Assembly (NCBI GenBank): GCA_016209865.1
Contig: JACQVL010000027.1
Coordinates: forward strand, 1-14,441
From: Candidatus Latescibacterota bacterium
GTDB taxonomy: Bacteria > JAAXHH01 > JACQVL01
DNA: 14,441 nt
Direction: 5' to 3'
In this document: one piece after another, positions 33 to 13,162 of the stretch
How positions within the stretch are numbered: the stretch's first letter is position 1
Layout: each line of letters begins with the position of its first letter
Made by a program: the position numbers and the translations under genes
The notes under the pieces: model-generated
The model's input: the letters and a program-made list of their open reading frames with translations, nothing else
Databases searched by the model: none
What the model was told of the DNA's origin: nothing

Positions 33-54
33 CGGGACCTCAGAAGGAAAGAGA

Positions 55-193
55 GGGGTCAGGGGTCGGGGGTCAGGGGTCAGGAAAGGAATGGGTTACA
101 GGGCGCAGGTCGCAGGTCACAGGGCAGATTTAAGACCTTCGACGTTCGACCTTGTCTTTTGTTCTTTCTGGTTTTCCTGACCCCTGACCCCCG
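55..193. repeat. Inverted heptamer-repeat element A with nested heptamer families
   Basis: Four tandem 7-mers of the ggggtca type occupy 55-82 (the second is a one-base variant). The inverse form tgacccc is repeated twice at 178-191. Positions 67-87 and 173-193 are a perfect 21-bp inverted repeat. Inside lie two further 7-bp-periodic blocks of different sequence: 98-125 (acagggc, gcaggtc, gcaggtc, acagggc) and 135-155 (accttcg, acgttcg, accttgt). The element has no coding potential of its own and begins four bases after the thioredoxin stop codon on the transcribed minus strand. It could fold into a long hairpin in RNA. It resembles in style the heptanucleotide STRR repeats known from filamentous cyanobacteria, without implying relatedness. 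Confidence 0.85.
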
Positions 194-197
194 CTCT

Positions 198-719
198 TTA
201 CTGTCGCTTCACGAACTGCTCAAATTTCATCCGTTTGTACCAGCCGTCCCCCACGTAGGTGAGGATCGGGCTGAACTCGTCAGGGGGCACATACCCGGAC
301 ACCGGCGAGACCGCCTTGCCGTCCGGGTCGAGGAACCAGGTCATCGGGTACCCGTTGACGCGGTACATCGCGGCGACCTGTGCCTCGGTCACTGTCTTCC
401 CATTCACCTGCACCGTCTGCTTCGACTCGGCGTTGACTTTGACGAGGACGAACTTGCTCGTCAGGATGGCCTGGATCGACTTGTCCCCGTACGTTTTCTC
501 ATCCATCGTCTTGCACCAGCCGCACCAGTCGGTGTAGAAATCGATCAGGACGTGCTTGTTCTGTTGTTTCGCCAGCACCAGCCCACGATCATACCGGTTC
601 CACGTCAGTCCCGTGTTCTCCGTCTTCCGGGCATGGCTCGACTCGACGTTCACGAGCACGCTTCGTCCGATCACGACCAGCAGGACGACTGCACACCCGA
701 CTGTCAACCATCGTGTCAT
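198..719 (-). CDS. Membrane-anchored thioredoxin-like protein
   Basis: A 173-residue protein with one hydrophobic N-terminal segment (about residues 5-23), a signal peptide or anchor, followed by a thioredoxin fold. The redox motif WCGWCK is at residues 65-70, with cysteines 66 and 69, preceded by the usual VLIDFYTDW strand. The cis-proline is in GYPMTWFLD (P125). It probably works outside the cytoplasmic membrane in disulfide reduction or isomerisation; the substrate is not visible. The start at 719 is chosen over the upstream ATG at 776 because GGAGG lies seven bases before it and the longer form would run into the preceding gene. It follows the glutaredoxin-like gene by 22 bp, so the two form an operon. 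Element A begins four bases past its stop. Confidence 0.88.
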   Translation of the reverse strand: MTRWLTVGCAVVLLVVIGRSVLVNVESSHARKTENTGLTWNRYDRGLVLAKQQNKHVLIDFYTDWCGWCKTMDEKTYGDKSIQAILTSKFVLVKVNAESKQTVQVNGKTVTEAQVAAMYRVNGYPMTWFLDPDGKAVSPVSGYVPPDEFSPILTYVGDGWYKRMKFEQFVKRQ

Positions 720-741
720 CGTTCGACCTCCATGGGAATCG

Positions 742-1044
742 TTATGCGGTAAGTTCTCGAATGAATCGCCGTTCATTCACCCGGTACCAGAACCGTTCGA
801 CGCCGTCGATCAGCACGACGGGAATCTTGACCTGGTATCGCGCGAAGAGCTGATCATCCGAGGTAATCTCGCATTCTTCGTACTCGAAGGGAATCCGGGC
901 ACGTACCCGCAGGAGCGTGTCCCGGGCATCCTCGCACAGGTGGCATCCTGCTTTCGTGTACAGCGTCACCCGATGACGGACAGGCGACGAACGCCGCCCG
1001 GTCACACCCCCGGAAAGACGCTGCCTGATGCCGATCAGAGACAT
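742..1044 (-). CDS. Glutaredoxin-like protein (DUF836/glutaredoxin 2-like family)
   Basis: A 100-residue protein. After a basic N-terminal extension of about 24 residues comes a compact glutaredoxin fold: strand VTLYTKAGCHLC with the CxxC at residues 34-37, helix, strand EYEECEI, and the cis-proline segment YQVKIPVVLIDG (P75). This is the layout of small glutaredoxin-like disulfide oxidoreductases of the DUF836 type. It likely passes electrons in the cytoplasm; its partner is unknown, but the exported thioredoxin-like gene follows in the same transcript. The start has AGGGAGG seven bases upstream and lies about 25 bases after a strong promoter at 1070-1098. A specific physiological role is not shown by the sequence. 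Confidence 0.82.
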   Translation of the reverse strand: MSLIGIRQRLSGGVTGRRSSPVRHRVTLYTKAGCHLCEDARDTLLRVRARIPFEYEECEITSDDQLFARYQVKIPVVLIDGVERFWYRVNERRFIRELTA

Positions 1045-1069
1045 GGTCGAGCCTCCCTACACTCCGTTG

Positions 1070-1098
1070 TATATATACGCATTTCGCCTCCCTGTCAA
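1070..1098 (-). promoter_or_regulatory. Sigma-70-type promoter for the glutaredoxin/thioredoxin operon
   Basis: On the minus strand TTGACA (1098-1093) is followed by exactly 17 bases and TATATA (1075-1070). The likely transcript start is near 1063, giving a leader of about 20 nt that holds the ribosome-binding site. The -35 box is consensus and the -10 box matches at five of six positions. Confidence 0.75.
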
Positions 1099-1117
1099 GT
1101 AGGGCCTGAGAAAATTC

Positions 1118-1146
1118 TTGCCTGAGCTGAGGGATTCTGGTATTAT
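1118..1146 (+). promoter_or_regulatory. Sigma-70-type promoter for the aminotransferase/fabH genes
   Basis: TTGCCT at 1118-1123, a 17-base spacer and TATTAT at 1141-1146, about 45 bases before the aminotransferase ATG. It is back to back with the minus-strand promoter; the two -35 boxes are only 19 bases apart, so a regulator bound between them could affect both operons. No clear operator palindrome was seen. Confidence 0.6.
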
Positions 1147-1191
1147 ACTTACGGCCTTTGGATCATGTCTTGAACCGCACCGGAGTCTCTC

Positions 1192-2538
1192 ATGGCTGAT
1201 CTCACTGTCGCACCCCCGGCTCCCAGTCTGCTGGAGGCCTATCAGGCGGTGTTCCCGACCTCTCGTGCCCTGTACGAACGGGCGTTGGCGCTGTTCCCGA
1301 ACGGGGTGACGCACGACGGCCGGTTCTTGCGTCCGTTCCCGATCTACGTCGACCGGGCGTCCGGCTCGCGGAAGTGGGACGTCGACGGGCACCCCCTGAT
1401 CGACTACTGGATGGGCCATGGGGCGCTCTTGCTCGGCCACAGCCGGACGGAGGTCGTCCAGGCGGTCGCGTCGCAGGCGGCGCGCGGCACCCACTACGGC
1501 GCGTGCCATGAACTCGAAATCGAGTGGGCGGAATGGGTGACCCGGCTCGTCCCCTGCGCGGAGCGGGTGCGGTTCGTCAGCTCCGGGACGGAGGCGACGC
1601 TGATGGCGCTCCGCTTAGCGCGGACGTTCACCGGCAAGCAGAAGGTGATCAAGTTCCGGGGACATTACCACGGCTGGCACGACAACCTGATGGACGGGAC
1701 CGGCCCGGCGAAAGACCGTCCCCTGCCCGGGGTGCTCCGGGAGGTGTTCGACACCCTCATCAGCCTGCCGCCGGGCGACGCAAACCTCGTCGAGGACCGG
1801 CTGAAGCGGGATGAGGAGATCGCCTGCCTGATCGTCGAGCCGACGGGCGAACTGTTCGGCGGCACGCCGCTCGGCGGAGAATTCCTGACCGCGCTCCGCT
1901 GGTTGACGGAACGGCACGGGGTGGTGTTCATCATGGATGAGGTCGTGACCGGGTTCCGGTGCGCGCCGGGCGGGGCGCAAGCACATTACGGGATCAAGCC
2001 CGACCTATGCACCCTGGCCAAGATCCTGGCGGGTGGCCTGCCCGGCGGGGCGGTCGCCGGACGGAAAGATATCCTCGACCTGCTGGAAATCCGACCGGAT
2101 GCTGCCTGGCAGACGACGAAGAAAATGCCGCATTACGGGACGTTCAACGCCAGCCCGCTCTCCGCCGCCGCCGGGGTCGCCGCGCTGAAGGTCGTCGCGG
2201 CCGGCCAGGACATCGCACGGGCGAACGAGATGGCGGCCCTTCTGCGCGACCGTCTGGCGCGCGTGCTGGACGCACACGGCCTGCACACCTGGCGGGTGTT
2301 CGGCCAGTTCTCCGGGGTCAAGTTGAGTTCTTCGCAGAACCCCGCCCAGTCGCGGCGCGGCGACCTCGACCTGATCTATGCCCTCCGTGGCGGGATGCTC
2401 CTCAACGGGGTCGACCTGCCGGGCGTGGACGGTCTGACGTCCTCCGCTCATACCGCCGACGATGTCGAACAGACCGCCGCCGCGTTCGATGCGACTCTGA
2501 CGATGCTCATGCATGAGGGCATTCTGGCGCGTACGTAA
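1192..2538 (+). CDS. Class III PLP-dependent aminotransferase, HemL-like
   Basis: A 448-residue protein of the class III aminotransferase/glutamate-1-semialdehyde aminomutase superfamily. Visible hallmarks in order: WDVDGHPLIDYWMGHGALLLGH (61-83, substrate and cofactor pocket), phosphate-binding SSGTEA (130-135), GHYHGWH (157-163, ring stacking), DEVVTGFR (249-256, Asp to the pyridine nitrogen), and the Schiff-base lysine K277 in LAKILAGGLPGG. GTFNASPL (317-323) closes the second subunit's phosphate site. It moves an amino group, or shifts it within a molecule; the substrate cannot be read from sequence. Position beside a fabH homologue rather than other haem genes argues against it being the housekeeping hemL. 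Start ATG has CGGAG six bases upstream. FabH starts 16 bases after its stop, so they are co-transcribed. Confidence 0.9.
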   Translation: MADLTVAPPAPSLLEAYQAVFPTSRALYERALALFPNGVTHDGRFLRPFPIYVDRASGSRKWDVDGHPLIDYWMGHGALLLGHSRTEVVQAVASQAARGTHYGACHELEIEWAEWVTRLVPCAERVRFVSSGTEATLMALRLARTFTGKQKVIKFRGHYHGWHDNLMDGTGPAKDRPLPGVLREVFDTLISLPPGDANLVEDRLKRDEEIACLIVEPTGELFGGTPLGGEFLTALRWLTERHGVVFIMDEVVTGFRCAPGGAQAHYGIKPDLCTLAKILAGGLPGGAVAGRKDILDLLEIRPDAAWQTTKKMPHYGTFNASPLSAAAGVAALKVVAAGQDIARANEMAALLRDRLARVLDAHGLHTWRVFGQFSGVKLSSSQNPAQSRRGDLDLIYALRGGMLLNGVDLPGVDGLTSSAHTADDVEQTAAAFDATLTMLMHEGILART

Positions 2539-2554
2539 GGAGACACCTGCTCAG

Positions 2555-3562
2555 ATGATCCGACGTGGCACCCCGTTTAACGCGATGATCACGGGCATCG
2601 CGCACTACCTGCCGGAACGGCGCCTGACGAACGCCGACCTGGAACAGATGGTCGAGACGACAGACGAATGGATCAGGACCCGGACCGGCATCTCCGAGCG
2701 GCGCATCCTGGAGAAGGGTAAGGGCACGTCGGTGATGGCCATCGAAGCGGCCAAACGCTTGATGGAGCAGACCGGCCTGACGGCTGAAGAGATCGACCTG
2801 ATCATCGTCGGCACGGTCACGCCGGACATGTACTTCCCGTCCACCGCCTGTCTCGTCCAGGACGCAATCGGGGCGAAGAACGCGTGGGGGTTCGATGTCC
2901 TGGGGGCGTGCTGCGGGTTCATCTACACCCTGACGGTCGGGGCGCAGTTCATCGAGACAGGGGCCCACAAAAAAGTGGTGGTCATCGGGGCGGACAAGAT
3001 GAGTTCCATCATGGACTACACCGACCGCCAGACGTGCGTCCTGTTTGGGGATGCGGCCGGGGCGGTCCTCCTTGAGCCGACGACCGACCCGGAGATGGGC
3101 ATCCTCGATTTCATCCATCATATCGACGGGTCGGGAGGGCAGTACCTGTACATGCCCGGCGGGGGCAGCCTCCACCCGCCCACGCACGAGACGGTGGAGA
3201 AGAAGATGCACTACGTCCACCAGGACGGACAGGCGGTGTTCAAGTTCGCCGTGGTCGGGATGGCGGAAGTGTCCGAGGATCTTCTCAAGCAGAACGGATT
3301 GACCGGGTCGGACATCGCTCTGTTCGTCCCCCATCAGGCGAACCTGCGGATCATCGAGAGCAGCGCGAAGCGGATGAAGCTTGACCCGTCCAAAGTCGCC
3401 ATCACGATCGATAAGTATGGAAACACGACGTCGGGTACGATCCCGGTGTCGTTGTCAGAAGCGGTAGACGAGGGACTGGTGAAGAAAGGGGACCTCATCG
3501 TGATGTCCAGCTTTGGCGCCGGATTCACCTGGGGGAGCGTGCTCACACGGTGGGGGTATTAG
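2555..3562 (+). CDS. fabH: Beta-ketoacyl-ACP synthase III (KAS III, FabH family)
   Basis: A 335-residue condensing enzyme of the thiolase fold, which normally joins an acyl-CoA starter to malonyl-ACP to begin a fatty acid or similar chain. The catalytic triad is complete: Cys119 in GACCGF, His260 in VPHQANLRI, and Asn290 in KYGNTTSGTIP. Early motifs TDEWIRTRTGISERRI and the C-terminal FGAGFTWGS are family typical, and length is normal. Start at 2555 is preferred because AAGGAGA lies 12 bases upstream, just after the aminotransferase stop; an internal ATG at 2585 lacks a ribosome site and 2513 overlaps the neighbour. No acp, fabD or other fab gene is in view, so it could serve housekeeping lipid synthesis or a special pathway with the aminotransferase. 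Symbol is by family. Confidence 0.9.
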   Translation: MIRRGTPFNAMITGIAHYLPERRLTNADLEQMVETTDEWIRTRTGISERRILEKGKGTSVMAIEAAKRLMEQTGLTAEEIDLIIVGTVTPDMYFPSTACLVQDAIGAKNAWGFDVLGACCGFIYTLTVGAQFIETGAHKKVVVIGADKMSSIMDYTDRQTCVLFGDAAGAVLLEPTTDPEMGILDFIHHIDGSGGQYLYMPGGGSLHPPTHETVEKKMHYVHQDGQAVFKFAVVGMAEVSEDLLKQNGLTGSDIALFVPHQANLRIIESSAKRMKLDPSKVAITIDKYGNTTSGTIPVSLSEAVDEGLVKKGDLIVMSSFGAGFTWGSVLTRWGY

Positions 3563-3568
3563 AATTCA

Positions 3569-3684
3569 ATTTTGGATTTTCGATTTTGGATTGGGAACGT
3601 ATGTGACGGAGAGCTTCGATGCTGTCATTTCCGCGTAAGCGGGAATCCATTTTTTAACCGACTACCGACCACTGACTACCGATT
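3569..3684. repeat. Heptamer-repeat region B between fabH and tpx
   Basis: Seven bases after the fabH stop begins a 7-bp-periodic block at 3569-3596 (attttgg, attttcg, attttgg, then a degraded unit). A second, unrelated block at 3657-3684 has four units of accgact type. Between them sits hairpin repeat copy 1 (3623-3652). The two blocks are not inverse copies of each other, so unlike elements A, C and D this one is not a matched pair; it may be a composite or a decayed element. No gene is present in 3563-3806. Confidence 0.75.
3623..3652 (+). repeat. GNAA-loop hairpin repeat, copy 1 (terminator-like)
   Basis: A 30-nt unit with stem ATTTCCGC / GCGGGAAT and loop GTAA. One pair is T opposite G, a G-U wobble in RNA. 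It is followed by CC and a run with six T residues, so in the fabH transcript it looks like an intrinsic terminator. The same unit recurs at 5048-5077 and, on the minus strand, at 13134-13162, with flanking TGTC and CCATT shared by all three. Confidence 0.8.
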
Positions 3685-3699
3685 CGCTGCCCTTTTCCC

Positions 3700-3728
3700 T
3701 TGACAGTCAACCATACGGCGATTAGTTT
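3700..3728 (+). promoter_or_regulatory. Putative tpx promoter
   Basis: A consensus TTGACA box at 3700-3705 is followed after 17 bases by TAGTTT (3723-3728), a weak -10 box. It lies about 80 bases before the tpx start and just downstream of the repeats and terminator-like hairpin, so tpx is probably transcribed on its own. Confidence 0.4.
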
Positions 3729-3806
3729 AACAGCACGTTTCAGGCACATTTTCAATACGAAGTGAGAGTGCAATCCATCAAGAGACTTCTCAAAGGAGGC
3801 AGTTGC

Positions 3807-4325
3807 ATGGCCATAGAACGACCCGCAGCGGTCACGCTCCGAGGGAATCCGTTCACCCTGGTCGGCCCGGAGATCAAGGTCGGAGATAAAGCCCCCGCCT
3901 TCCAGGTGCTCGGCGGCGACCTCTCGTCCGTCACGCTGGACACGTATAAAGGCAAGGTGAAGGTCATCTGCGCGGTCCCATCCCTGGACACGCCAGTCTG
4001 TGACACAGAGACCCGGCGGTTCAACGCAGAGGCGGCGAACTTGAGCGATCACATCGCCATCCTGACGGTCAGCGTCGATTTGCCGTTCGCGCAGAAGCGC
4101 TGGTGCGGGGCGAACGGCGTGGACAAGGTGACGGCGTTGTCCGATCATCGGGAGACCGCGTTCGGCCAGGCGTACGGGACGCTCATCAAAGAACTGCGCC
4201 TCCTCAGCCGGGCGGTGTTCGTCGTCGACGCGAGCGACACGGTACGGTACGTCGAGTACGTGCCCGAAGTCGCCAGTGAGCCGAACTACGGGGCAGCCCT
4301 GGCGGCGGCGAAAGCAGCCGTGTAG
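3807..4325 (+). CDS. tpx: Thiol peroxidase (atypical 2-Cys peroxiredoxin)
   Basis: A 172-residue peroxiredoxin of the Tpx group, which reduces hydrogen peroxide and organic hydroperoxides and is recharged by thioredoxin. The N-terminal LRGNPFTLVG and VGDKAPAF are typical. The peroxidatic cysteine is C65 in PSLDTPVCDTETRRFN and the resolving cysteine is C100 in KRWCGANG, at the spacing seen in Tpx. The conserved arginine is in LLSRAVFVVD. Start at 3807 is set by a strong AAAGGAGG seven bases upstream; an earlier in-frame ATG at 3762 lacks one. A perfect hairpin follows the gene, so it looks monocistronic. The thioredoxin-like gene at 198-719 is predicted to be exported and is therefore unlikely to be its direct reductant. 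Confidence 0.95.
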   Translation: MAIERPAAVTLRGNPFTLVGPEIKVGDKAPAFQVLGGDLSSVTLDTYKGKVKVICAVPSLDTPVCDTETRRFNAEAANLSDHIAILTVSVDLPFAQKRWCGANGVDKVTALSDHRETAFGQAYGTLIKELRLLSRAVFVVDASDTVRYVEYVPEVASEPNYGAALAAAKAAV

Positions 4326-4352
4326 TCTCTCATCCTTCGAGTGACCTTCTCG

Positions 4353-4385
4353 AACGCCGTCCGGTTCTCATCACGGACGGCGTTT
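4353..4385 (+). terminator. Hairpin terminator after tpx
   Basis: A perfect 11-bp stem (AACGCCGTCCG at 4353-4363 with its complement at 4374-4384) around a 10-base loop, ending in TTT and then TGTGTT. The T tract is short, so termination may be partial. It ends only seven bases before the dcd ribosome-binding site, so some read-through into dcd is possible. Confidence 0.7.
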
Positions 4386-4391
4386 GTGTTC

Positions 4392-4397
4392 AAGGAG
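4392..4397 (+). promoter_or_regulatory. Ribosome-binding site that fixes the GTG start of dcd
   Basis: AAGGAG six bases before GTG 4404. It decides the start against the upstream ATG at 4341, which would place the terminator hairpin inside the coding region. Confidence 0.85.
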
Positions 4398-4403
4398 TCT
4401 CCC

Positions 4404-5030
4404 GTGATCCTGAGTGACCGGACGATCAGAGAAGAAATCGCCGCCGGTCGGCTGATCATCGACCCGTACGACCCGAAGCTCGTCCAGCCGGCCAGTCTCG
4501 ATCTGCGGCTCAGCCTGAAATTCCGGGTCTTCGCGGACGTGTCGATGTACGGACAGATGGGTAAAGCGTACATCGACACGAAAGAATCGGTCGCCGATAT
4601 CATGCGGCTGGTCGAGGTGAAAGACGGGGAGCCGTTCATGCTCCCGCCGCGCCAGTTCGTGCTCGGCAGCACGGTGGAGACGGTGACCCTCCCGGCCGAT
4701 CTGGTCGGCCGCCTGGAGGGACGGAGTTCGCTCGGCCGGATCGGCGTGGTCATCCACAGCACTGCCGGGTACATCGATTGCGGCTACTCCGGCCAGATCA
4801 CCCTCGAAATCTCCAACCTCAGTCCTCTGCCCATCGCCCTGTATCCGGGCATGAGGATCGCGCAAATCTCCTTCGCCCGGATGACTACGCCCGCGGAGCG
4901 TCCCTATGGCCATAAAGACCTGTCGAGCAAATACCAGGGCCAGCAGGACCCGACGCCGAGCAAACTGTTCATGGACTTCACGACAAGCAAGGACGAAGGA
5001 CGAAGGACGAAAGGGAAAAGAAGAGGTTAG
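4404..5030 (+). CDS. dcd: dCTP deaminase (possibly bifunctional dCTP deaminase/dUTPase)
   Basis: A 208-residue trimeric dUTPase-fold enzyme, deaminating dCTP to dUTP for thymidylate synthesis. The N-terminus MILSDRTIREEIAAG (GTG start) and QPASLDLRLS are classic Dcd. GRSSLGRIGV (106-115) and STAGYIDCGYSGQITLEI (119-136) hold the nucleotide site; E135 matches the general base. The RSSLGR...TAGYID pattern is closer to the bifunctional deaminase/dUTPases of Mycobacterium and Methanocaldococcus than to E. coli Dcd, so direct dCTP to dUMP conversion is possible. The usual proline of IDPG is replaced by cysteine (IDCG). The last 14 or so residues after LFMDFTT, with KDEGRRTKG, are encoded by the heptamer repeat of element C and are not part of the normal family fold. 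Confidence 0.92.
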   Translation: MILSDRTIREEIAAGRLIIDPYDPKLVQPASLDLRLSLKFRVFADVSMYGQMGKAYIDTKESVADIMRLVEVKDGEPFMLPPRQFVLGSTVETVTLPADLVGRLEGRSSLGRIGVVIHSTAGYIDCGYSGQITLEISNLSPLPIALYPGMRIAQISFARMTTPAERPYGHKDLSSKYQGQQDPTPSKLFMDFTTSKDEGRRTKGKRRG

Positions 5031-5106
5031 AGGCAACATTTCTGCTCTGTCATTCCCGCGCAAGCGGGAATCCATTTTCGTCCTTCGTCCTTATCACTTC
5101 GTCCTT
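4989..5106. repeat. Inverted heptamer-repeat element C with embedded hairpin
   Basis: Three tandem aaggacg units at 4989-5009 face four units of cgtcctt at 5079-5106 (the third is a variant, atcactt). Positions 4996-5012 and 5076-5092 are a perfect 17-bp inverted repeat. The centre holds hairpin repeat copy 2 immediately beside the right arm. The left arm is inside the dcd reading frame and supplies its C-terminal tail; the right arm ends a few bases before the ribosome-binding site of the UPF0173 gene. Confidence 0.85.
5048..5077 (+). repeat. GNAA-loop hairpin repeat, copy 2
   Basis: A perfect 8-bp stem ATTCCCGC / GCGGGAAT with loop GCAA, preceded by TGTC and followed by CCATTTT. Same unit as 3623-3652 and 13134-13162. 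It lies in the sense direction of dcd and the following hydrolase gene. Confidence 0.85.
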
Positions 5107-5122
5107 GATTGAGGAGGCGACC

Positions 5123-5806
5123 ATGCCAACCCTCACCTACCTCGGGCATGCCTGTTTGACCCTCGCAGACGGCTCGCATACCCTGCTCTTCGACCCGTTC
5201 CTGACCGGGAACCCGCAGGCCTCCATCCCGGCGAGCGACATCCACGCCGATTACATCCTGCTGACCCACGGCCACGCCGACCATCTCGGCGACGCGATCC
5301 CGATCGCCAGGCGGTGCAAAGCCACGATCATCACCACGTATGAGTTAGCCGCGTACTGTGAACGGCACGGCGCGACGGTGCACGGGATGGGGATCGGCGG
5401 GTCGTATGCGTTCCCGTTCGGCCGCGTCAAAGTGACGCAAGCCCTCCACGGGTCGGCCATCGTCGGCGACCGGGGGATCGAGTACACCGGAAACCCGTGC
5501 GGGTTCCTCGTCCACATCGGCGGGAAGACGATCTACAACGCGGGAGACACCGGACTGTTCGGGGACATGGCGCTCATCGGGCGGCTGTACAAGCCCTATG
5601 CCGCCATCCTGCCCATCGGGGATAATTACACGATGGGGATCGATGACGCGGTCGAAGCCGTCAAGATGCTCGCCCCGAAACTGGTCATCCCGATTCACTA
5701 CAACACGTTCCCCGTCATCATGCAGGACCCGTACGTGTTCGTCAAGAAGGTCGGCAAAACGCCCCGGTGCGTCGTGCTCAAGCCGGGCGAGGCGTTTACG
5801 ATATAG
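5123..5806 (+). CDS. UPF0173-family metal-dependent hydrolase (metallo-beta-lactamase fold)
   Basis: A 227-residue protein of the UPF0173 (YtkL-like) group of metallo-beta-lactamase-fold hydrolases; the natural substrate of the group is not settled. Metal ligands are visible: THGHADHLGD (H49, H51, D53, H54), H109 in QALHGSA, D142 in YNAGDTGLFGDM, and H192 in IPIHYNTFP. The block PIGDNYTMGIDDAVEAVKML is a family signature. Start at 5123 has GAGGAGG five bases upstream; the in-frame ATG at 5105 lies in the repeat. The stop codon TAG (5804-5806) shares two bases with the first heptamer of element D. A cytoplasmic location is likely since no signal peptide is seen. Confidence 0.92.
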   Translation: MPTLTYLGHACLTLADGSHTLLFDPFLTGNPQASIPASDIHADYILLTHGHADHLGDAIPIARRCKATIITTYELAAYCERHGATVHGMGIGGSYAFPFGRVKVTQALHGSAIVGDRGIEYTGNPCGFLVHIGGKTIYNAGDTGLFGDMALIGRLYKPYAAILPIGDNYTMGIDDAVEAVKMLAPKLVIPIHYNTFPVIMQDPYVFVKKVGKTPRCVVLKPGEAFTI

Positions 5807-5932
5807 TGACGAGTGGCGAGTGACAAGTGACGAGCAAAAGAAGGTTGAAGCTAAGGGAAGATTGAGGTTAAGGTTCCTCGATCGTTCTTCACGCTGAACC
5901 TGATCTTGACTCGTCACTTGTCACTCGTCACT
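5805..5932. repeat. Inverted heptamer-repeat element D
   Basis: Four tandem units of agtgacg type (5805-5832) face three units of cgtcact type (5912-5932). Positions 5812-5834 and 5910-5932 pair as inverted repeats at 22 of 23 positions, and the internal agtgaca variant is mirrored exactly by tgtcact on the other arm. The centre (about 75 bp) is purine-rich on the left and has no gene. The element starts inside the stop codon of the UPF0173 gene and ends about ten bases before the moaB ribosome site. Confidence 0.85.
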
Positions 5933-5952
5933 GCTGGACAACAGGAGCCACG

Positions 5953-6468
5953 ATGTTACAGACCGGCCCGCACGTTGACCATAAAAAACACGCCCCCCAG
6001 ACTGTCCGTTGTATGGTCGTCACGGTGAGCGACTCCCGGACGAAGGAGACGGACACGACCGGACAGTACCTCCTCGATGCGCTCACGCAGGCCGCCCATG
6101 AGGTCGTCCGGTATGAGATCGTCAAGGACGAGCCGGAGCAGATCCGGCGGGTCCTGCAAGAGGGATTGGCAGACGAGCGCGTCCAGGTGATCATCACGAA
6201 CGGCGGAACGGGGATTTCAAAGCGGGACGGGACGTACGAGGTGGTGGAGGGGTTGTTGGAGAAACGGCTCGACGGGTTCGGTGAGCTGTTCCGTGCCCTG
6301 AGCTACCAGGACATCGGCCCCGCCGCGATGCTCAGCCGGGCGACCGCCGGACTGGCGCAGGGGACGATCCTGATCGCCCTCCCGGGTTCGCCCAACGCCT
6401 CAAAACTGGCGATGCCGAAGCTGATCCTGCCCGAACTCGGCCATCTGGTGCGGGAGATCAACCGATAA
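5953..6468 (+). CDS. moaB: Molybdenum cofactor protein MoaB/MogA family
   Basis: A 171-residue MoCF-fold protein; the family adenylylates molybdopterin before molybdenum insertion. Visible motifs are VVTVSDSRTKETDTTG (22-37), the binding loop ITNGGTGISKRD (81-92, with the conserved Asp92), and ALPGSPNA (142-149). The sequence is closer to MoaB than to two-domain MoeA. Start has CAGGAG five bases upstream, directly after element D. Its TAA stop overlaps the ATG of the NHL gene by one base (TAATG), so the two are translationally coupled. No other molybdopterin gene and no molybdoenzyme is in the window. Confidence 0.92.
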   Translation: MLQTGPHVDHKKHAPQTVRCMVVTVSDSRTKETDTTGQYLLDALTQAAHEVVRYEIVKDEPEQIRRVLQEGLADERVQVIITNGGTGISKRDGTYEVVEGLLEKRLDGFGELFRALSYQDIGPAAMLSRATAGLAQGTILIALPGSPNASKLAMPKLILPELGHLVREINR

Positions 6469-7460
6469 TGCCCCCCTCTGGCCCTGGCTTCTCCTTCGTG
6501 TCCCTGATCGCTGTGGCGGCCGCGGTGATCGGCCTTCTGGGGGGAAGCCGTGACGGGTACGGACAGATGGTGCAGCTCACGTTCGCGGGCGTGATCGGCA
6601 GGGAAGGCACCGGGGCCGGCCAGTTGCTGGAGCCGGCGGGAATCGCCGTCGACCCGGCCGGGCACGTGTACGTCGCAGACACGGGGAATCATCGCGTCCT
6701 GCAGTTCGACGCGAACGGCCGGTATCTCAGCCATACCGGGGGGTTCGGGTTCAACGCTCAGCAATTCAACCAGCCGACCGACCTGGCCGCGACCGGACTG
6801 GACGTCTACGTGGCCGATGCGCAGAACCGGCGCGTCCAGCGGTTCGACCGCCATCTCAATTTTATCTCGACACTGGCGATCTCGACATTAGCTGCCGGCC
6901 TTGCGACCCCTGACCAGGCTGCCCAGCCGCTCGGTTTTCCCAGAGGAATTGCCGTGTCGCCTACCGGGGAGGTCTACATTACGGATGCAGAGAACGAAGA
7001 GGTGGTGAAGATGAGCACCGCGGGCCAGGCTGAGGTCCGATTCGGTGGGTTCAGTGATGGGCCCGGACGGCTGCGAAACCCGGCCGGGCTGGCGGTGAGC
7101 CGGTCGGGCGAGGTGTACGTGGCCGACATGGGGAATAACCGGATCGCGGTGTTCGACCGGTTTGGGGGCTTTCTACGGGAAATGGGCAATAAGAATCTTG
7201 CGGTTCCAGAAGGGGTCGATGTCGACGATCAAGGGCGCGTCTATATCGCAGACACCGGACATGATCGAGTGATCGTTTTCTCAGGACGCGGCGAACTCCT
7301 CCTGGCGTTCGGGGTCTGGGGGACCGGCCTGGGTTCGTTTCACGCGCCGCGCGACGTGGCCGTGGATCGCACCGGGATGTTGTACGTGGTCGATACCGGG
7401 AATCATCGGGTGCAGAAGTTTGCGGTGAGAGCGTCACAAGAAGCGAAACCCTCGAACTGA
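6468..7460 (+). CDS. Exported NHL-repeat beta-propeller protein
   Basis: A 330-residue protein with a hydrophobic N-terminal segment (about 10-25) that looks like a signal peptide or anchor without a lipobox cysteine. Six NHL repeats follow at about 54-81, 101-127, 157-184, 203-230, 246-272 and 292-318, each with the pattern P.GIAV...G.VYVADTGNHRV..F. This predicts one closed six-bladed propeller with no additional domain, used for ligand or protein binding or, in some relatives, as an enzyme. The third blade is the most divergent (ENEEVVKM in place of GNHRVQKF). It has no separate ribosome-binding site and relies on coupling to moaB. Its periplasmic or surface ligand is unknown. Confidence 0.88.
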   Translation: MPPSGPGFSFVSLIAVAAAVIGLLGGSRDGYGQMVQLTFAGVIGREGTGAGQLLEPAGIAVDPAGHVYVADTGNHRVLQFDANGRYLSHTGGFGFNAQQFNQPTDLAATGLDVYVADAQNRRVQRFDRHLNFISTLAISTLAAGLATPDQAAQPLGFPRGIAVSPTGEVYITDAENEEVVKMSTAGQAEVRFGGFSDGPGRLRNPAGLAVSRSGEVYVADMGNNRIAVFDRFGGFLREMGNKNLAVPEGVDVDDQGRVYIADTGHDRVIVFSGRGELLLAFGVWGTGLGSFHAPRDVAVDRTGMLYVVDTGNHRVQKFAVRASQEAKPSN

Positions 7461-7487
7461 TGCGTCACCAGAGAAAGGAGACATCAG

Positions 7488-7814
7488 ATGGCTTATTATC
7501 TGCTCCAGGTTACCTACACGCCCGAAGCGTGGACGGCGCTGATCAGAAGCCCACAAAACCGCGTTGAAGTCGTGCGCCCGGTCGCCGAACGACTGGGAGG
7601 CACCCTCGAAAACGCCTGGTTTTCACTCGGAGAGTATGACGTGGTCGCTCTCCTGAAGATGCCCGACAACGTGAACGCGGCGGCTTTTTCCATGGCGGCC
7701 TCGGCGAGCGGGGGGATGAAGGCGATCAAAACGACACCGCTCCTGACGATGGAGGAAGGGATGGAAGCGATGAAACTGGCCGGAGGGGCGGGATACCGTC
7801 CCCCGCTCGGCTAA
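7488..7814 (+). CDS. GYD-domain protein
   Basis: A 108-residue protein matching the GYD domain, a small ferredoxin-like fold of the dimeric alpha-beta barrel type. The naming motif appears as GEYD at 48-51, followed by VVALLKMPDNVNAAAFSMA and KTTPLLTMEEGMEAM. The family's biochemical role is not established. AAGGAG lies seven bases before the ATG. It starts 27 bases after the NHL gene and ends 19 bases before the next gene, so moaB, NHL, GYD and the following gene are probably one transcript. No signal peptide is present, so it should act in the cytoplasm. Confidence 0.85.
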   Translation: MAYYLLQVTYTPEAWTALIRSPQNRVEVVRPVAERLGGTLENAWFSLGEYDVVALLKMPDNVNAAAFSMAASASGGMKAIKTTPLLTMEEGMEAMKLAGGAGYRPPLG

Positions 7815-7833
7815 GAGATCGGAGGGCACACTT

Positions 7834-8919
7834 ATGGCCACTCCTGTTCGAGAACGGTTGACTGACGTGCTGGACGCCGCAGGCCATCCTCCCATCACGC
7901 TGCGTGCAGCAGGCGGCGGGTCCGCCCTGGTGCTCCCGTTTGGTGCGCGCGTCATCGGCCTGTTTCCCCAGGACGACGGAGAGAGCGTCTTCTGGGTCAA
8001 CCCGCGCCTCACCCGTGTGGAGACGGCGCGCGAACTGTTCCGGGCGAACGAATGGATCATCAAGGGCGGGGATCGCACCTGGGTGGGGCCGGAAGTGGAC
8101 ACGCACATCGGCGACCTCGCCGACCCGTGGGGGACCTACCGGGTGCCGTCGACGATCGACCCCGGCCGGTATACGGTCGAGCAGTCAGGGGATGGAGCGA
8201 CGCTGAGCGTACAGACCCAGGTGCCGATTCACCGGCGCAAGACCCACTGTGAGGTGAAGCTGAAGAAATCCGTCCGCATGATTCCCAGCCCGCTGCGGCG
8301 GGAGGTCACGATGAAAGGTTGGTTGGGAGAGGTGGCTTACGCGGGCTACGAACAGATCACCTCCCTCCGTCTCGTTGCAGCCCCCGACCCCTCGGTACAG
8401 GTGGGCATCTGGAACCTCATCATCCTGCCCGCCGGAGGCCAGATGGTCGTCCCCACGACCGGGCGAACGCAAGTGCGCGTCTACTTCGGCTCCCCCGGAT
8501 CGACGCGCCTGTCGGTGGACGAGCGGGTCGTCCATCTTCGGCTTGACGGCCACGAACAGCTCAAGATCGGCATCCGGGCCGCCGCGTTGATCGGACGGGC
8601 AGGCTATGTCCGGCCGTGTCAAGACGACACGTGGACGCTCGTCGTCCGCAATTTTCAGGTGAACCCCTCCGGCGAATACGTGGACGTGCCGTGGGAGGCG
8701 ACCGACGACCTGGGGTACGCGTTCCAGTCGTACAGCGATGACGGGAAGATGGGGGATTTCGGTGAGTTAGAATACCACGCCCCGGCGATCGGCGGGGAGA
8801 CCGGGCTGACCGCGTACGTCGACCGGAGCCAGGTGTGGGCCTTCCGCGGGGCAAGAACGCACATTCACACGATCGCCGAATGTCTCCTCGGCCAGGGGAC
8901 GCTGTCCGGCATCGTGTAG
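7834..8919 (+). CDS. Hypothetical protein resembling the DUF6786 (galactose-mutarotase-like) family
   Basis: A 361-residue protein with no signal peptide and few predicted helices; alternating hydrophobic strands suggest an all-beta sandwich. The opening ALVLPFGARVIGLFP and FWVNPRL followed by GGDRTWVGPEVD (78-89) and a mid-protein WNLIILPAGGQMVVPT recall the DUF6786 family, whose fold is like galactose mutarotase and related sugar-binding enzymes. That assignment is from memory of the motif order and is moderate. Arg81, Glu87, and histidines near the C-terminus (THIHTIAE) are candidates for a sugar site. CGGAGG lies eight bases upstream of the ATG. It is the last gene of the plus-strand run, and converges with the ABC operon. 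It could be a carbohydrate-processing protein of unknown substrate. Confidence 0.6.
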   Translation: MATPVRERLTDVLDAAGHPPITLRAAGGGSALVLPFGARVIGLFPQDDGESVFWVNPRLTRVETARELFRANEWIIKGGDRTWVGPEVDTHIGDLADPWGTYRVPSTIDPGRYTVEQSGDGATLSVQTQVPIHRRKTHCEVKLKKSVRMIPSPLRREVTMKGWLGEVAYAGYEQITSLRLVAAPDPSVQVGIWNLIILPAGGQMVVPTTGRTQVRVYFGSPGSTRLSVDERVVHLRLDGHEQLKIGIRAAALIGRAGYVRPCQDDTWTLVVRNFQVNPSGEYVDVPWEATDDLGYAFQSYSDDGKMGDFGELEYHAPAIGGETGLTAYVDRSQVWAFRGARTHIHTIAECLLGQGTLSGIV

Positions 8920-8927
8920 CCCGGACA
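8903..8927. terminator. Weak hairpin at the convergent gene junction
   Basis: TGTCCGG (8903-8909) pairs with CCGGACA (8921-8927) around an 11-base loop that includes the stop codon of the plus-strand gene. There is no T tract on either side, so it may only slow polymerase or protect the 3' end. The remaining gap to the opposing gene (8928-8960) holds nothing recognisable. Confidence 0.3.
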
Positions 8928-8960
8928 GGCGCTGTATAACGACGTGTGGACGTACATCGC

Positions 8961-11075
8961 TCACGCCCGGAGGTCAGGGTAAGGGGTGCGGACCCGGTAG
9001 AGCAGATAGAAACTCAGCGCGAACGCGGCGGCGGTCGCAAGATACCACCACCAGTCGAGGGTGTGGAGTGACAACCCTTGCCGGGCGGCCCAAAAGCTCA
9101 GTGCATTACTGGCGGCGTGGGCGAACATGCTGGGGAAGATCGACCCGGTCAACAGAACGATGCCGGTGAGCGTCATCCCTAAGAATGCCGTCGGGATGAG
9201 CCGGAACAGAGCGATATGAAACAGCCCGAATATCGCCCCGATGACGAGAGCGAGTCTGACCGGGCGGAACTTCCGCCGCAGACCGTAGAGCAGCAGTCCC
9301 CGGAATCCGATCTCCTCGCAGATTCCCGGCAGGACGGCGAGCAACAGGAGAAGCTGCCAGAACGGAATGTCTGAGGGCATGAATTCCTGCCCGAACCGTT
9401 CCAGAAGACGCTCCGGCACGGGTAGGAACAGGTTGGCCAGACGGAACACTCCGAGGGCGGTCACCAGGCCGGACGGGATTGCGAGCAAGACGGCCAGCCA
9501 GGCCAGCGGCTTGACCGGTCGCAGCGCCAGCGCTTCACGGACGTTGAGCCGGTATTTCCAGATCATCAACGCCGGGCCGCCCAGAAAGATCACCACCTCA
9601 TTGAAGAAGAGTTGCCGCTTCAGCGTCGCCAACTCCGGGATGTTGGCCGCCACGGCGAAGATGACCGCCCACATCACCCCGTACCAGCGCAGGACGTGCT
9701 TCGGGAAGAGCGCCGGTCCTCCGGTCAGGTCGGCGACGTCAGCTTCGCTCGCCGTGATGAGCCGCTCCATCGAGAGCATCCGGGCCGAGACGCGCATCAT
9801 CCACCCCGCGGTCACGGCCATGACGAGCAACGTCACCCCGATCATCGGCCAGTCGTATTTGCCGACCATGACTTCGCGGACCGCGACGCTCACGTTGGCG
9901 ACCGGCACGACGGCGATCGCCGACCGCAGCGACACCCCTGGCAAGACCGCCGCTAACGCCGGGGCGAGACTCACCAGGTACACCGGAAAGAAATACATCT
10001 GAGCTTCTTTAAACGACTTCGCGTAGGCGGAGAGCATCAGCAAGGCCGAGGCGATCACGGCCGCCACCGGGATGAACAGCAACAACAGGGTGACGATCAG
10101 GACGGGCGGAGCCTCGATGATGAACGTCTTGGGAAGCTCGATCAGCCTGAGGTTCAGGTAGACCAGGATGTTCGTCACCTGAATGAGCGTAATCAACAGG
10201 GCGATGAACAGAATGGTTAACTGTTTCGCCGCCACGATCTCAGCCCGGCTGGCGGCGGTCGTCAGCAGGGTCTCTAAGGAGCCTCGCTCTTTCTCCCCCG
10301 CCACGCTGTCCATCGCCGCGATCGACCCGCCGCTGAGCATGAGCGTCAGCAGGAACACGGTGAGAAAGCGCCCGATCCACGAACCGGTCACCTGTCCTGC
10401 CGTGGCCACGCTGGAGGGTTCAACCGCTATCACCTGCTCCGGTTCGACGGGGAATCCGCGTTCCCGGAGGAGAGCATCCCGCTCAATCCCGCGGAGCAGG
10501 ACGAGGAGACGCTGCATCCGACGGAGTCCAGCCTGGGATGCATCACGATCCTCCTGAAAGTAGATCGTGACAACCGGCACACCGGGAAGCCGGACGGGTT
10601 CTGAGGCTGTCGAATCCGATGACTGTCCTCGTCTCCGTCGCGCTCGCTCCTTCTTCTCAGCGTCTGCCTTTCGTGCCCGTGCGTCCGCTTCTCTCCCGTT
10701 CACCGCTTCCAGGTAGAAGTGGATGTCCTTCGATTTCAGGCTGGAGTCGGGAGAGGCGACGCGGACTTCCTCGAACCTGAACCCGGCCAGACTCTCCTCG
10801 TCGTCCTGTTCTTTCAGTTCAGAGGAACGGAAAAGCCTCCCTCGTGCCTGTGCGAGGAGCGCGCGCACGGTGTCGGCTTCTGTCCCGGTGACCGCGTACC
10901 GATAGACCGTCTCGGCCAGCGTCTTCTCCCGGCGTTGTTCGACATACCGGGTGCCGAACAGCATCAGGGGCATCACCGCGATCGGGAGGACGATGGAGAG
11001 GATGACGGTGCGGCGGTCGCGCGCCAGCATCCGCAGTTCGTGGATGAGCAGGGTTCGAACGGTCGTCCAGTTCAT
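8961..11075 (-). CDS. ABC-2 (NatB-type) permease fused to a CPBP intramembrane protease
   Basis: A 704-residue two-part membrane protein. Residues 1-440 are an ABC-2 permease: TM helix at about 24-41, a soluble loop (45-235) with a charged segment at 127-160, the conserved AGEKERGSLETLLTTAASRAEIV (260-281), and five or so further helices. From about 460 comes a CPBP (CAAX protease/bacteriocin-processing) domain with all three motifs: EEIGFR (587-592), FGLFH (616-620) and HAASN (653-657), so it should be an active glutamic-type intramembrane protease. Such fusions are known in Planctomycetes and relatives. It likely pairs with the ATPase and permease encoded just upstream as an exporter that also cleaves a membrane substrate. 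The start has no clear Shine-Dalgarno; the bases before it belong to a heptamer array. Confidence 0.9.
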   Translation of the reverse strand: MNWTTVRTLLIHELRMLARDRRTVILSIVLPIAVMPLMLFGTRYVEQRREKTLAETVYRYAVTGTEADTVRALLAQARGRLFRSSELKEQDDEESLAGFRFEEVRVASPDSSLKSKDIHFYLEAVNGREADARARKADAEKKERARRRRGQSSDSTASEPVRLPGVPVVTIYFQEDRDASQAGLRRMQRLLVLLRGIERDALLRERGFPVEPEQVIAVEPSSVATAGQVTGSWIGRFLTVFLLTLMLSGGSIAAMDSVAGEKERGSLETLLTTAASRAEIVAAKQLTILFIALLITLIQVTNILVYLNLRLIELPKTFIIEAPPVLIVTLLLLFIPVAAVIASALLMLSAYAKSFKEAQMYFFPVYLVSLAPALAAVLPGVSLRSAIAVVPVANVSVAVREVMVGKYDWPMIGVTLLVMAVTAGWMMRVSARMLSMERLITASEADVADLTGGPALFPKHVLRWYGVMWAVIFAVAANIPELATLKRQLFFNEVVIFLGGPALMIWKYRLNVREALALRPVKPLAWLAVLLAIPSGLVTALGVFRLANLFLPVPERLLERFGQEFMPSDIPFWQLLLLLAVLPGICEEIGFRGLLLYGLRRKFRPVRLALVIGAIFGLFHIALFRLIPTAFLGMTLTGIVLLTGSIFPSMFAHAASNALSFWAARQGLSLHTLDWWWYLATAAAFALSFYLLYRVRTPYPDLRA

Positions 11076-11086
11076 AGACTTTTACT

Positions 11087-11114
11087 CGTCACTCGTCACT
11101 TGTCACTCGTCACT
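11087..11114. repeat. Heptamer-repeat block E between natA and the permease fusion
   Basis: Four tandem units of cgtcact (agtgacg on the sense minus strand), with one tgtcact variant, the same family as element D. No inverse arm is nearby; only one half is present. It fills almost the whole 27-bp space between two genes, supplies the end and stop codon of natA and occupies the ribosome-binding region of the next gene. Confidence 0.85.
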
Positions 11115-13133: not shown

Positions 13134-13162
13134 AATGGATTCCCGCTTTCGCGGGAATGACA
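13134..13162 (-). repeat. GNAA-loop hairpin repeat, copy 3
   Basis: On the minus strand a perfect 8-bp stem ATTCCCGC / GCGGGAAT with loop GAAA, preceded by TGTC and followed by CCATT. It lies between the oxidoreductase stop and the permease start, in the direction of transcription, and could act on the mRNA at the permease start. Confidence 0.85.

Follow-up and report, generated by a model that had tools for sequence, protein, structure and literature searches.

The analysed window, a 14,441-nucleotide stretch of contig JACQVL010000027.1 from a Candidatus Latescibacterota bacterium, carries arrays with a seven-base period at five places, associated with the genes for thioredoxin, fabH, dcd, UPF0173 and natA. 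All five had been noticed in a preliminary description made from the sequence, and each is confirmed here as a period-7 array with its own coordinates (Table 1). At four of the five the layout is two-armed, one array lying past a stop codon and another, inverted, ahead of the following gene.

Table 1. Heptad arrays and palindromes of the window, with their positions relative to the neighbouring genes.
Feature	Positions	Strand	Context
G-rich arm, CAGGGGT family, 4.4 units	54-84	+	near the left end of the contig
Two weaker inner arrays, CAGGTCG and GACCTTC units (99-123, 134-153)	99-153	+	inside the CAGGGGT module
C-rich inverted arm of the CAGGGGT module	176-191	-	about 6 bases from the thioredoxin stop (198-200, gene on the - strand)
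GGATTTT-family arm	3565-3592	+	directly past the fabH stop (3562)
REP-like palindrome ATTTCCGC-GTAA-GCGGGAAT	3627-3646		core of the fabH-gap module
ACCGACT-type arm, CGGTGGT/CGGTAGT family inverted	3657-3682	-	second arm of the fabH gap
AAGGACG arm	4989-5011	+	begins at the probable original end of dcd
REP-like palindrome ATTCCCGCGCAAGCGGGAAT	5052-5071		core of the AAGGACG module
Inverted AAGGACG arm	5077-5106	-	just 5' of the UPF0173 start
GTGACGA arm	5805-5834	+	overlaps the UPF0173 stop (TAG at 5804-5806)
Inverted GTGACGA arm	5909-5932	-	20 bp ahead of a mogA-like gene
Solo 31-bp GTGACGA array	11084-11114	-	natA/natB junction; second TGA (11103-11105) is now the natA stop

The distances to stop codons are close to those first reported for fabH, dcd, UPF0173 and natA, the exception being the thioredoxin stop, which had been placed at four bases. 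The dcd frame runs into its array, and the AAGGACG arm lengthens the gene by about 14 codons; dcd of order relatives aligns only up to residue 192-193. The C-terminus of the UPF0173 protein is intact with respect to two relatives. Synteny around dcd and UPF0173 was not found in the sampled stretches of G060 and G059. In the fabH gap the second arm comes from a different family than the first. The core of the CAGGGGT module (54-191) is related to that of another module of the genome, at L145:8824 (85% over 52 nt), and an arrangement resembling its inner arrays is also found at L037:2697.

Period 7 yields 125 strong arrays (score of at least 14) in 773 kb of the genome, sampled in stretches and amounting to about 21% of it, whereas each of the other periods that are not multiples of seven, counted in the same 773 kb as a control, yields 0-8 arrays of that score; hence the window arrays are not chance products. 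Over the whole genome, GTGACGAGTGACGAG with at most one mismatch has 755 matches, whereas the reversed pattern has 4. In the genome about nine unit families occur side by side, most of them without G-quadruplex capacity. Several unit families thus share one architecture, as anticipated by the proposal that period and place are constant while the sequence varies.

Array lengths cluster at 24-25 and at 30-33 bp, the modes of 24 and 31 bp corresponding to three to four units plus a partial one; four units are most frequent in families D, F, T, R, A and O, three in P and M. The registers are fixed, the left partial unit being 0 in 73 of 77 D arrays and the right one 2-3 in 64 of 77. Variants fall at particular unit positions, the second unit being variant in 72% of D arrays against 15% for the first and fourth (0 of 2000 permutations as uneven), and substitutions in CGGGGTT number 0-1 of 101 in the GGG core against 32 at the next base. 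The standard size, the fixed ends and the limitation of variation to certain unit positions had been overlooked in the preliminary description. Arrays also stack as composites in this genome.

These regularities bear on replication slippage, in which a chance heptamer near a gene end would expand in situ, a length of 7 nt suiting the polymerase; this was proposed by Mrázek (cited in PMC4679880 and PMC4692102). The dominance of period 7 would fit slippage, and one arm has one unit more in one of the two related modules L045:185 and L045:1103 than in the other. However, a slippage microsatellite has a variable copy number and no fixed ends, whereas here ends and total length are fixed and variants keep to set positions; moreover, hundreds of unrelated sites carry the same unit families, polarity is strong, and an identical unit order occurs in cyanobacteria. 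Growth by slippage, one of the origins first suggested, is therefore disfavoured and in our judgement quite unlikely, while slippage may still adjust copy number.

The usual count of four has been explained by G-quadruplexes, four G-tracts making one quadruplex, as proposed for GGGAATC repeats, for which formation in vitro was demonstrated (PMC4692102). The commonest units here, AGTGACG and GATTTTG, as well as AAGGACG, hold no GGG tract and do not conform to the quadruplex-forming GGGANTN unit, yet they keep the same four units, polarity and place. As a general cause of the four-unit rule this explanation is refuted, and as an account of the arrays we give it almost no weight; it could still apply to the G-rich families. 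Binding sites for a protein, which would read an invariant core of 3-4 nt every 7 nt in DNA or RNA, would fit the invariant core, the variable neighbours in each unit and the usual four units, and an RNA-binding regulator was proposed by MacGregor for TAACTGA repeats (PMC4679880). About nine families of one architecture would however need as many readers, and the genes next to the window arrays have no function in common; we regard such sites as highly improbable.

Concerning placement, the array block lies at most 5 bp from the upstream stop in 72 of 107 same-strand gaps, where placement at random, the ribosome-binding site being kept free, would give 51±2.8. Since this null, with a ribosome-site margin of 15-20 bp, still falls short of the observed number, a pure artefact of short gaps is rejected. 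Where more than 60 bp are left over in the gap, weak arms and palindromes being also counted, 14 of 22 blocks lie at most 10 bp from the stop against 2.3 expected; since modern free space can be post-insertion sequence, targeting of the stop codon itself is not claimed. The suspected enrichment near stops is thus genome-wide, and the outcome named beforehand as a refutation, a lack of such enrichment, did not occur, but the picture of arrays at 3' gene ends is incomplete, as starts are also capped, in a strongly preferred orientation. Strand polarity is 142:25, with the G-rich strand directed away from the gene. Both orientations are present in 44 of 104 tandem gaps, as close inverted pairs, and the order is always G-rich then C-rich, with no tandem gap showing a C-rich arm ahead of a G-rich one. 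Where D-family arrays overlap a stop, they mostly do so at -5, -12 and -19, which are 7-spaced TGA positions. In pooled contigs of a virus collection the polarity holds for the two families searched (26:9) and is weak for other units (41:34), the latter perhaps as a result of poor gene calls on short contigs.

In 13 of 13 order-level relatives examined, natA and natB keep an ATGA stop/start overlap without insert, and here this overlap is interrupted by a 31-bp array with A-rich flanks, which on this comparison is a clear insertion. In three further orthologous pairs the relatives' gaps are shorter and array-free (153 bp here against 14 and 21; 54 against -8; 13 against -4), and the upstream C-termini at the compared gaps are conserved to within a few residues. 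The original idea of an element class that enters at gene ends proves correct, although the preliminary interpretation as a whole is supported only in part.

Three of the four two-armed modules of the window fold far better than shuffled sequences, namely CAGGGGT (54-191, -64.5 kcal/mol, z -7.7), AAGGACG (4989-5106, -61.9 kcal/mol, z -8.3) and GTGACGA (5805-5932, -71 kcal/mol, z -9.5). Together with the location directly past stops, and with the Xanthomonas transcripts of which some start or stop at such repeats (PMC4692102), this would suit a function at the RNA 3' end, an intercistronic hairpin, kept in place by selection, that would shield the upstream mRNA or terminate transcription. Against it, the mixed fabH module is no more stable than its shuffled versions (z -0.5), and no fold is obtained for the solo natA/natB array (z -1.2). 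Within a module, complementarity between the two arms does not exceed that between arms taken from different modules (permutation p 0.95, 0.64 and 0.11), and selected hairpin pairing is rejected for this lack of covariation. In addition, one array was inserted inside the natA/natB overlap, where 13 relatives have none, and the window gives no Rfam match. A general RNA 3'-end structure, the other possibility raised at the outset, is consequently unlikely.

The module cores do not define a single element either. REP-like palindromes occupy many of them, and a non-palindrome core is common to another gap in only 28 of 130 array gaps, the cores being mostly unrelated. The arms are inverted and a few cores are shared, but a uniform MITE with one core is disfavoured. 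REP/BIME palindromes, mobilised by RAYT transposases (PMC3733652), are likewise small palindromic intergenic elements, but the heptad arms do not belong to the REPs. Neither Y1_Tnp/RAYT (PF01797) nor an RVT_1 reverse transcriptase (PF00078) gave a match in the genome, which is 83% complete, and a mobilising enzyme of either kind encoded in it is rejected to that extent; a mobilising gene may be missing from short-read contigs, which break at repeats. Target-site duplication is not supported as a general feature, abutting flanking direct repeats of at least 4 bp showing no genome-wide excess (4 against 3.0 in shuffled pairs, p 0.37). The natA/natB flanks offer one good duplication-like case, an AAAAGT repeat; since abutting repeats are no commoner than in shuffled pairs, it may stem from the A-rich sequence that flanks most arrays.

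On balance, we lean towards tiny dispersed repeats that enter gene junctions as preformed units, selection having eliminated the other insertions. This is grounded in the defined ends, the standard size and the hundreds of dispersed copies in several families, in the empty natA/natB site and the array-free shorter gaps of three orthologous pairs, and in the strong polarity and stop-codon bias. The element would measure about 31 bp, four heptads and a partial one between definite outer and inner ends, and would enter gene-gene junctions singly or as two inverted copies flanking a core of about 20-130 bp, presumably moved or copied in trans by an enzyme. Survivorship would account for most of the bias in place: the stretch from the stop to the next ribosome-binding site would be the only harmless position, because the relatives' empty gaps measure -8 to 21 bp. 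As 7 is not a multiple of 3, the TGA within the unit (or a variant unit with TAG) would occur in every frame within three units, so that an insertion just ahead of the gene stop would still terminate the protein. Inverted arms would form strong hairpins in RNA or DNA, a pairing that does not look selected. Survivorship does not fully account for the stop preference still seen in roomy gaps, and the arrays have no evident benefit to the host. More doubtful is a sequence-independent machinery which, in many bacterial phyla, might build or copy 31-nt four-heptad caps at gene boundaries with a set strand polarity. If it existed, it would give units of unrelated sequence a common length, direction and place, and the caps would constitute a class of mobile or templated DNA addition without a known enzyme.

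The analogy with cyanobacterial STRRs drawn in the preliminary description is right. These heptanucleotide repeats of heterocystous cyanobacteria, reportedly described by Mazel et al. in 1990 and Elhai et al. in 2008, are intergenic heptamers with small palindromes nested inside the arrays; the arrays studied here resemble them in both respects, and differ by the host lineage and by several further families. The architecture of four-unit heptamer repeats is already known from GGGAATC and GGGGA(C/T)T heptamers in Xanthomonas and Nostoc (Rehm et al. 2015, PMC4692102), which share with the present arrays the period of 7, mostly four units, conserved and variable unit positions, an intergenic location, the coding strand just past or overlapping stops and the non-coding strand just ahead of starts, rarity in divergent gaps and frequent inverted pairs. 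Unlike these, about nine families coexist here, most without G-tracts, together with composites and one site empty in relatives; and whereas 83% of the repeats are common to two Xanthomonas species (PMC4692102), the two commonest families are absent from most order relatives here.

Heptamer repeats of cyanobacteria and Xanthomonas have been on record for a long time, and there is no consensus on how they arose. About nine families, a shared length and polarity in non-quadruplex units and a site empty in relatives make the question of origin testable. The rule concerns length, direction and place and not one sequence, which weakens the published quadruplex explanation, and the evidence argues against slippage and G-quadruplexes as a general cause and points to whole-unit insertion by a putative enzyme. 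What is new is the number of families in one genome, most of them quadruplex-incapable, the empty-site evidence and a unit "dialect" shared across phyla. The TAACTGA repeats of Beggiatoaceae (MacGregor 2015, PMC4679880) are also intergenic heptamer direct repeats in small sets, whose stop codons in all frames were noted as limiting gene overlap; they differ in having a single unit, mostly just upstream of starts and in one orientation, with 1 of 170 inverted. The GGATTTT dialect, for its part, is present in cyanobacterial plasmids, with 34/34 nt identical in one from Dolichospermum, as well as in other lineages.

Period-7 arrays had been described at five places in the window, and Tandem Repeats Finder confirmed all five; at four of them a second, inverted array lies ahead of the next gene. 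The source genome is a 3.75 Mb draft in 356 contigs, 83% complete, from which 772,835 bp (88% coding) were sampled. Genes were called with a simple codon-usage caller, which recovered most window genes and missed the glutaredoxin-like frame; it is crude, with stops surer than starts. In this sample period 7 yields 125 arrays with a score of at least 14, against 0-8 for periods not divisible by 7; 98 of the 125 are mainly intergenic.

The arrays share one architecture, with fixed ends and length modes of 24 and 31 bp. Besides the six families of the table there are the less common GGCAGTG, GATTGCG and GATGAAT, and every unit has a few positions that tolerate substitution besides an invariant core. 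Of 101 units in family R, for example, 0-1 are altered in the GGG core and 32 at the following base. Variants also depend on the place within the array: in family D the second unit is variant in 72% of arrays versus 15% for the first and fourth, an unevenness matched by 0 of 2000 permutations. A-rich flanks lie on either side of the arrays, many modules (one or two arrays, or arms, and the core between them) enclose a REP-like (small palindromic repeat) sequence ATTCCCGC-nnnn-GCGGGAAT, and in some modules two families (T followed by D) are stacked via AAAATC-like linkers.

Array families and coordinates of repeat features
Feature	Coordinates	Sequence
Family D consensus		AGTGACG AGTGACn AGTGACG AGTGACG AG(T)
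Family F consensus		GATTTTG GATTTTA GATTTTG GATTTTG GATTG
Family R consensus		CGGGGTT x4 + CGGG
Family T consensus		CGGTGGT x4 + CGGT
Family A consensus		AAGGACG x4 + AA
Family O consensus		CAGGGGT x4 + CAGG
Solitary REP-like palindrome between natC and next gene	window 13139-13158	ATTCCCGCTTTCGCGGGAAT
Ordinary-looking terminator hairpin, tpx-dcd gap; heptads absent	window 4340-4390	GAACGCCGTCCGG...CGGACGGCGTTTGTGTT
Dispersed palindromic repeat, ~120 bp	L138:1-158, L132:7659-8054, L047:12587-12717, L167:1-269	GTAGGGGCGATCCTTGTGATCGCCC...GGGGCGAATACAAGATTCGCCCCTAC
Second dispersed repeat	L046:9165-9421, L187:1987-2223, L156:3473-3583	rich in CCCCTCTCCC...GGGAGAGGGG
GGCAGTG-heptad element, 10 gaps including	L042:17752, L133:2056, L175:346, L153:1294	common core CCACTGCCTACTGCCCGGTGGGGCC...
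Back-to-back array pairs, different families, within long open frames	L041:16726-16792, L170:2126-2193	

The enrichment at stop codons, on which the preliminary description had staked its reading, was borne out: in 72 of 107 array-bearing same-strand gaps the block (the arrays of one gap) starts no more than 5 bp past the upstream stop or overlaps it, versus 51±2.8 and 57±2.4 expected from random placement with ribosome-site margins of 15 and 20 bp, respectively. With blocks enlarged by weak arms and REP-like palindromes, 22 gaps retain more than 60 bp of spare room, and the block lies within 10 bp of the stop in 14 of these (2.3 expected), a preference for which sequence added after insertion may partly account. 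Blocks per kb increase from divergent (0.77) through tandem (2.35) to convergent gaps (3.69). Within tandem gaps the C-rich orientation always follows the G-rich one; with arrays near starts included, the G-rich strand is directed away from the gene in 142 cases, with 25 against. The two array pairs inside open frames are either the result of mis-called starts or genuine in-gene insertions.

Comparison with 15 genomes, related at order level only, points to how this placement arises. (G011 and G060 were counted as one genome, given identical match coordinates; L052, recorded as Candidatus Zixiibacteriota bacterium K_Offshore_80m, belongs to G060.) In 13 of 13 order relatives for which the end of natA and the start of natB were readable, these genes overlap as ATGA. 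The window has GTG AAA AGT at this junction, followed by AGTGACGAGTGACAAGTGACGAGTGACGAGT and then by AAAAGTCT ATG, and subtracting the array and one AAAAGT leaves an ATGA overlap resembling that in the relatives; the natA stop is now the second TGA of the array. The gap after the sixth gene of contig stretch L137 spans 153 bp; its counterparts in two relatives span 14 and 21 bp. Another two orthologous gaps measure 54 versus -8 and 13 versus -4 bp, and the ends of the upstream proteins differ by a few residues at most. The dcd homologues of the order align only up to residue 192-193, where the window array starts. From these short gaps, kept ends and the dcd limit, arrays appear to go in very near the original stop, before or after it. 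An array landing just before the stop would provide a replacement through its own TGA in any frame, which would explain why the main positions of D-family stop overlaps are -5, -12 and -19. The AAAAGT repeat resembles a target duplication; we do not claim one, because abutting direct repeats flanking arrays show no genome-wide excess over shuffled pairs.

Slippage alone does not account for the arrays, given their set ends, length, variant order and polarity and the presence of the same dialect elsewhere: the F array finds perfect matches in a Dolichospermum plasmid (34/34 nt) and in Sphaerospermopsis (33/33), and F-type arrays occur in G060, G059 and G062 and in 11 virus-collection stretches. 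RNA selected for pairing was also rejected: strong folding is seen in three of the four two-armed modules of the window, but arms within a module matched no better than arms from different modules. The four-unit rule cannot be put down to quadruplexes, since G-tracts are absent from the commonest families.

Heptamers of the sequences GGGAATC and GGGGA(C/T)T are on record from a pair of Xanthomonas genomes and from Anabaena/Nostoc (Rehm et al. 2015, PMC4692102); they likewise show a four-unit preference, the identical strand rule at stops and starts, stop-codon overlap, inverted pairs and rarity between divergent genes. MacGregor 2015 (PMC4679880) remarked on stop codons in all frames in the TAACTGA repeats of Beggiatoaceae, and the period-7 excess among long repeats is traced there to Mrázek et al. 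2007. The window arrays are therefore members of a class already described but without explanation, to which we add about nine families coexisting under one architecture, position-specific variants, no covariation of arms, rejection of quadruplexes as general cause, empty-site evidence and a dialect common to different phyla.

REP-like palindromes account for 771 of the 1012 pairwise gap-gap matches, yet no RAYT (REP transposase) gene was found in the 83%-complete draft, nor any reverse transcriptase; the missing sequence may hide either. Copies of the ~120-bp repeat often lie at contig ends, most with >90% identity to each other, and the GGCAGTG element is the best candidate for a uniform element bearing heptads. 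Period-8 arrays are also frequent in the G059 sample (L215-L234), at 4.2 per 100 kb versus 6.1 for period 7. Contigs L255-L272 and L292-L308, filed as viral, may be bacterial; they carry dozens of heptad families, with 65 units among 170 arrays in 317 kb, most arrays being 3-4 units long.
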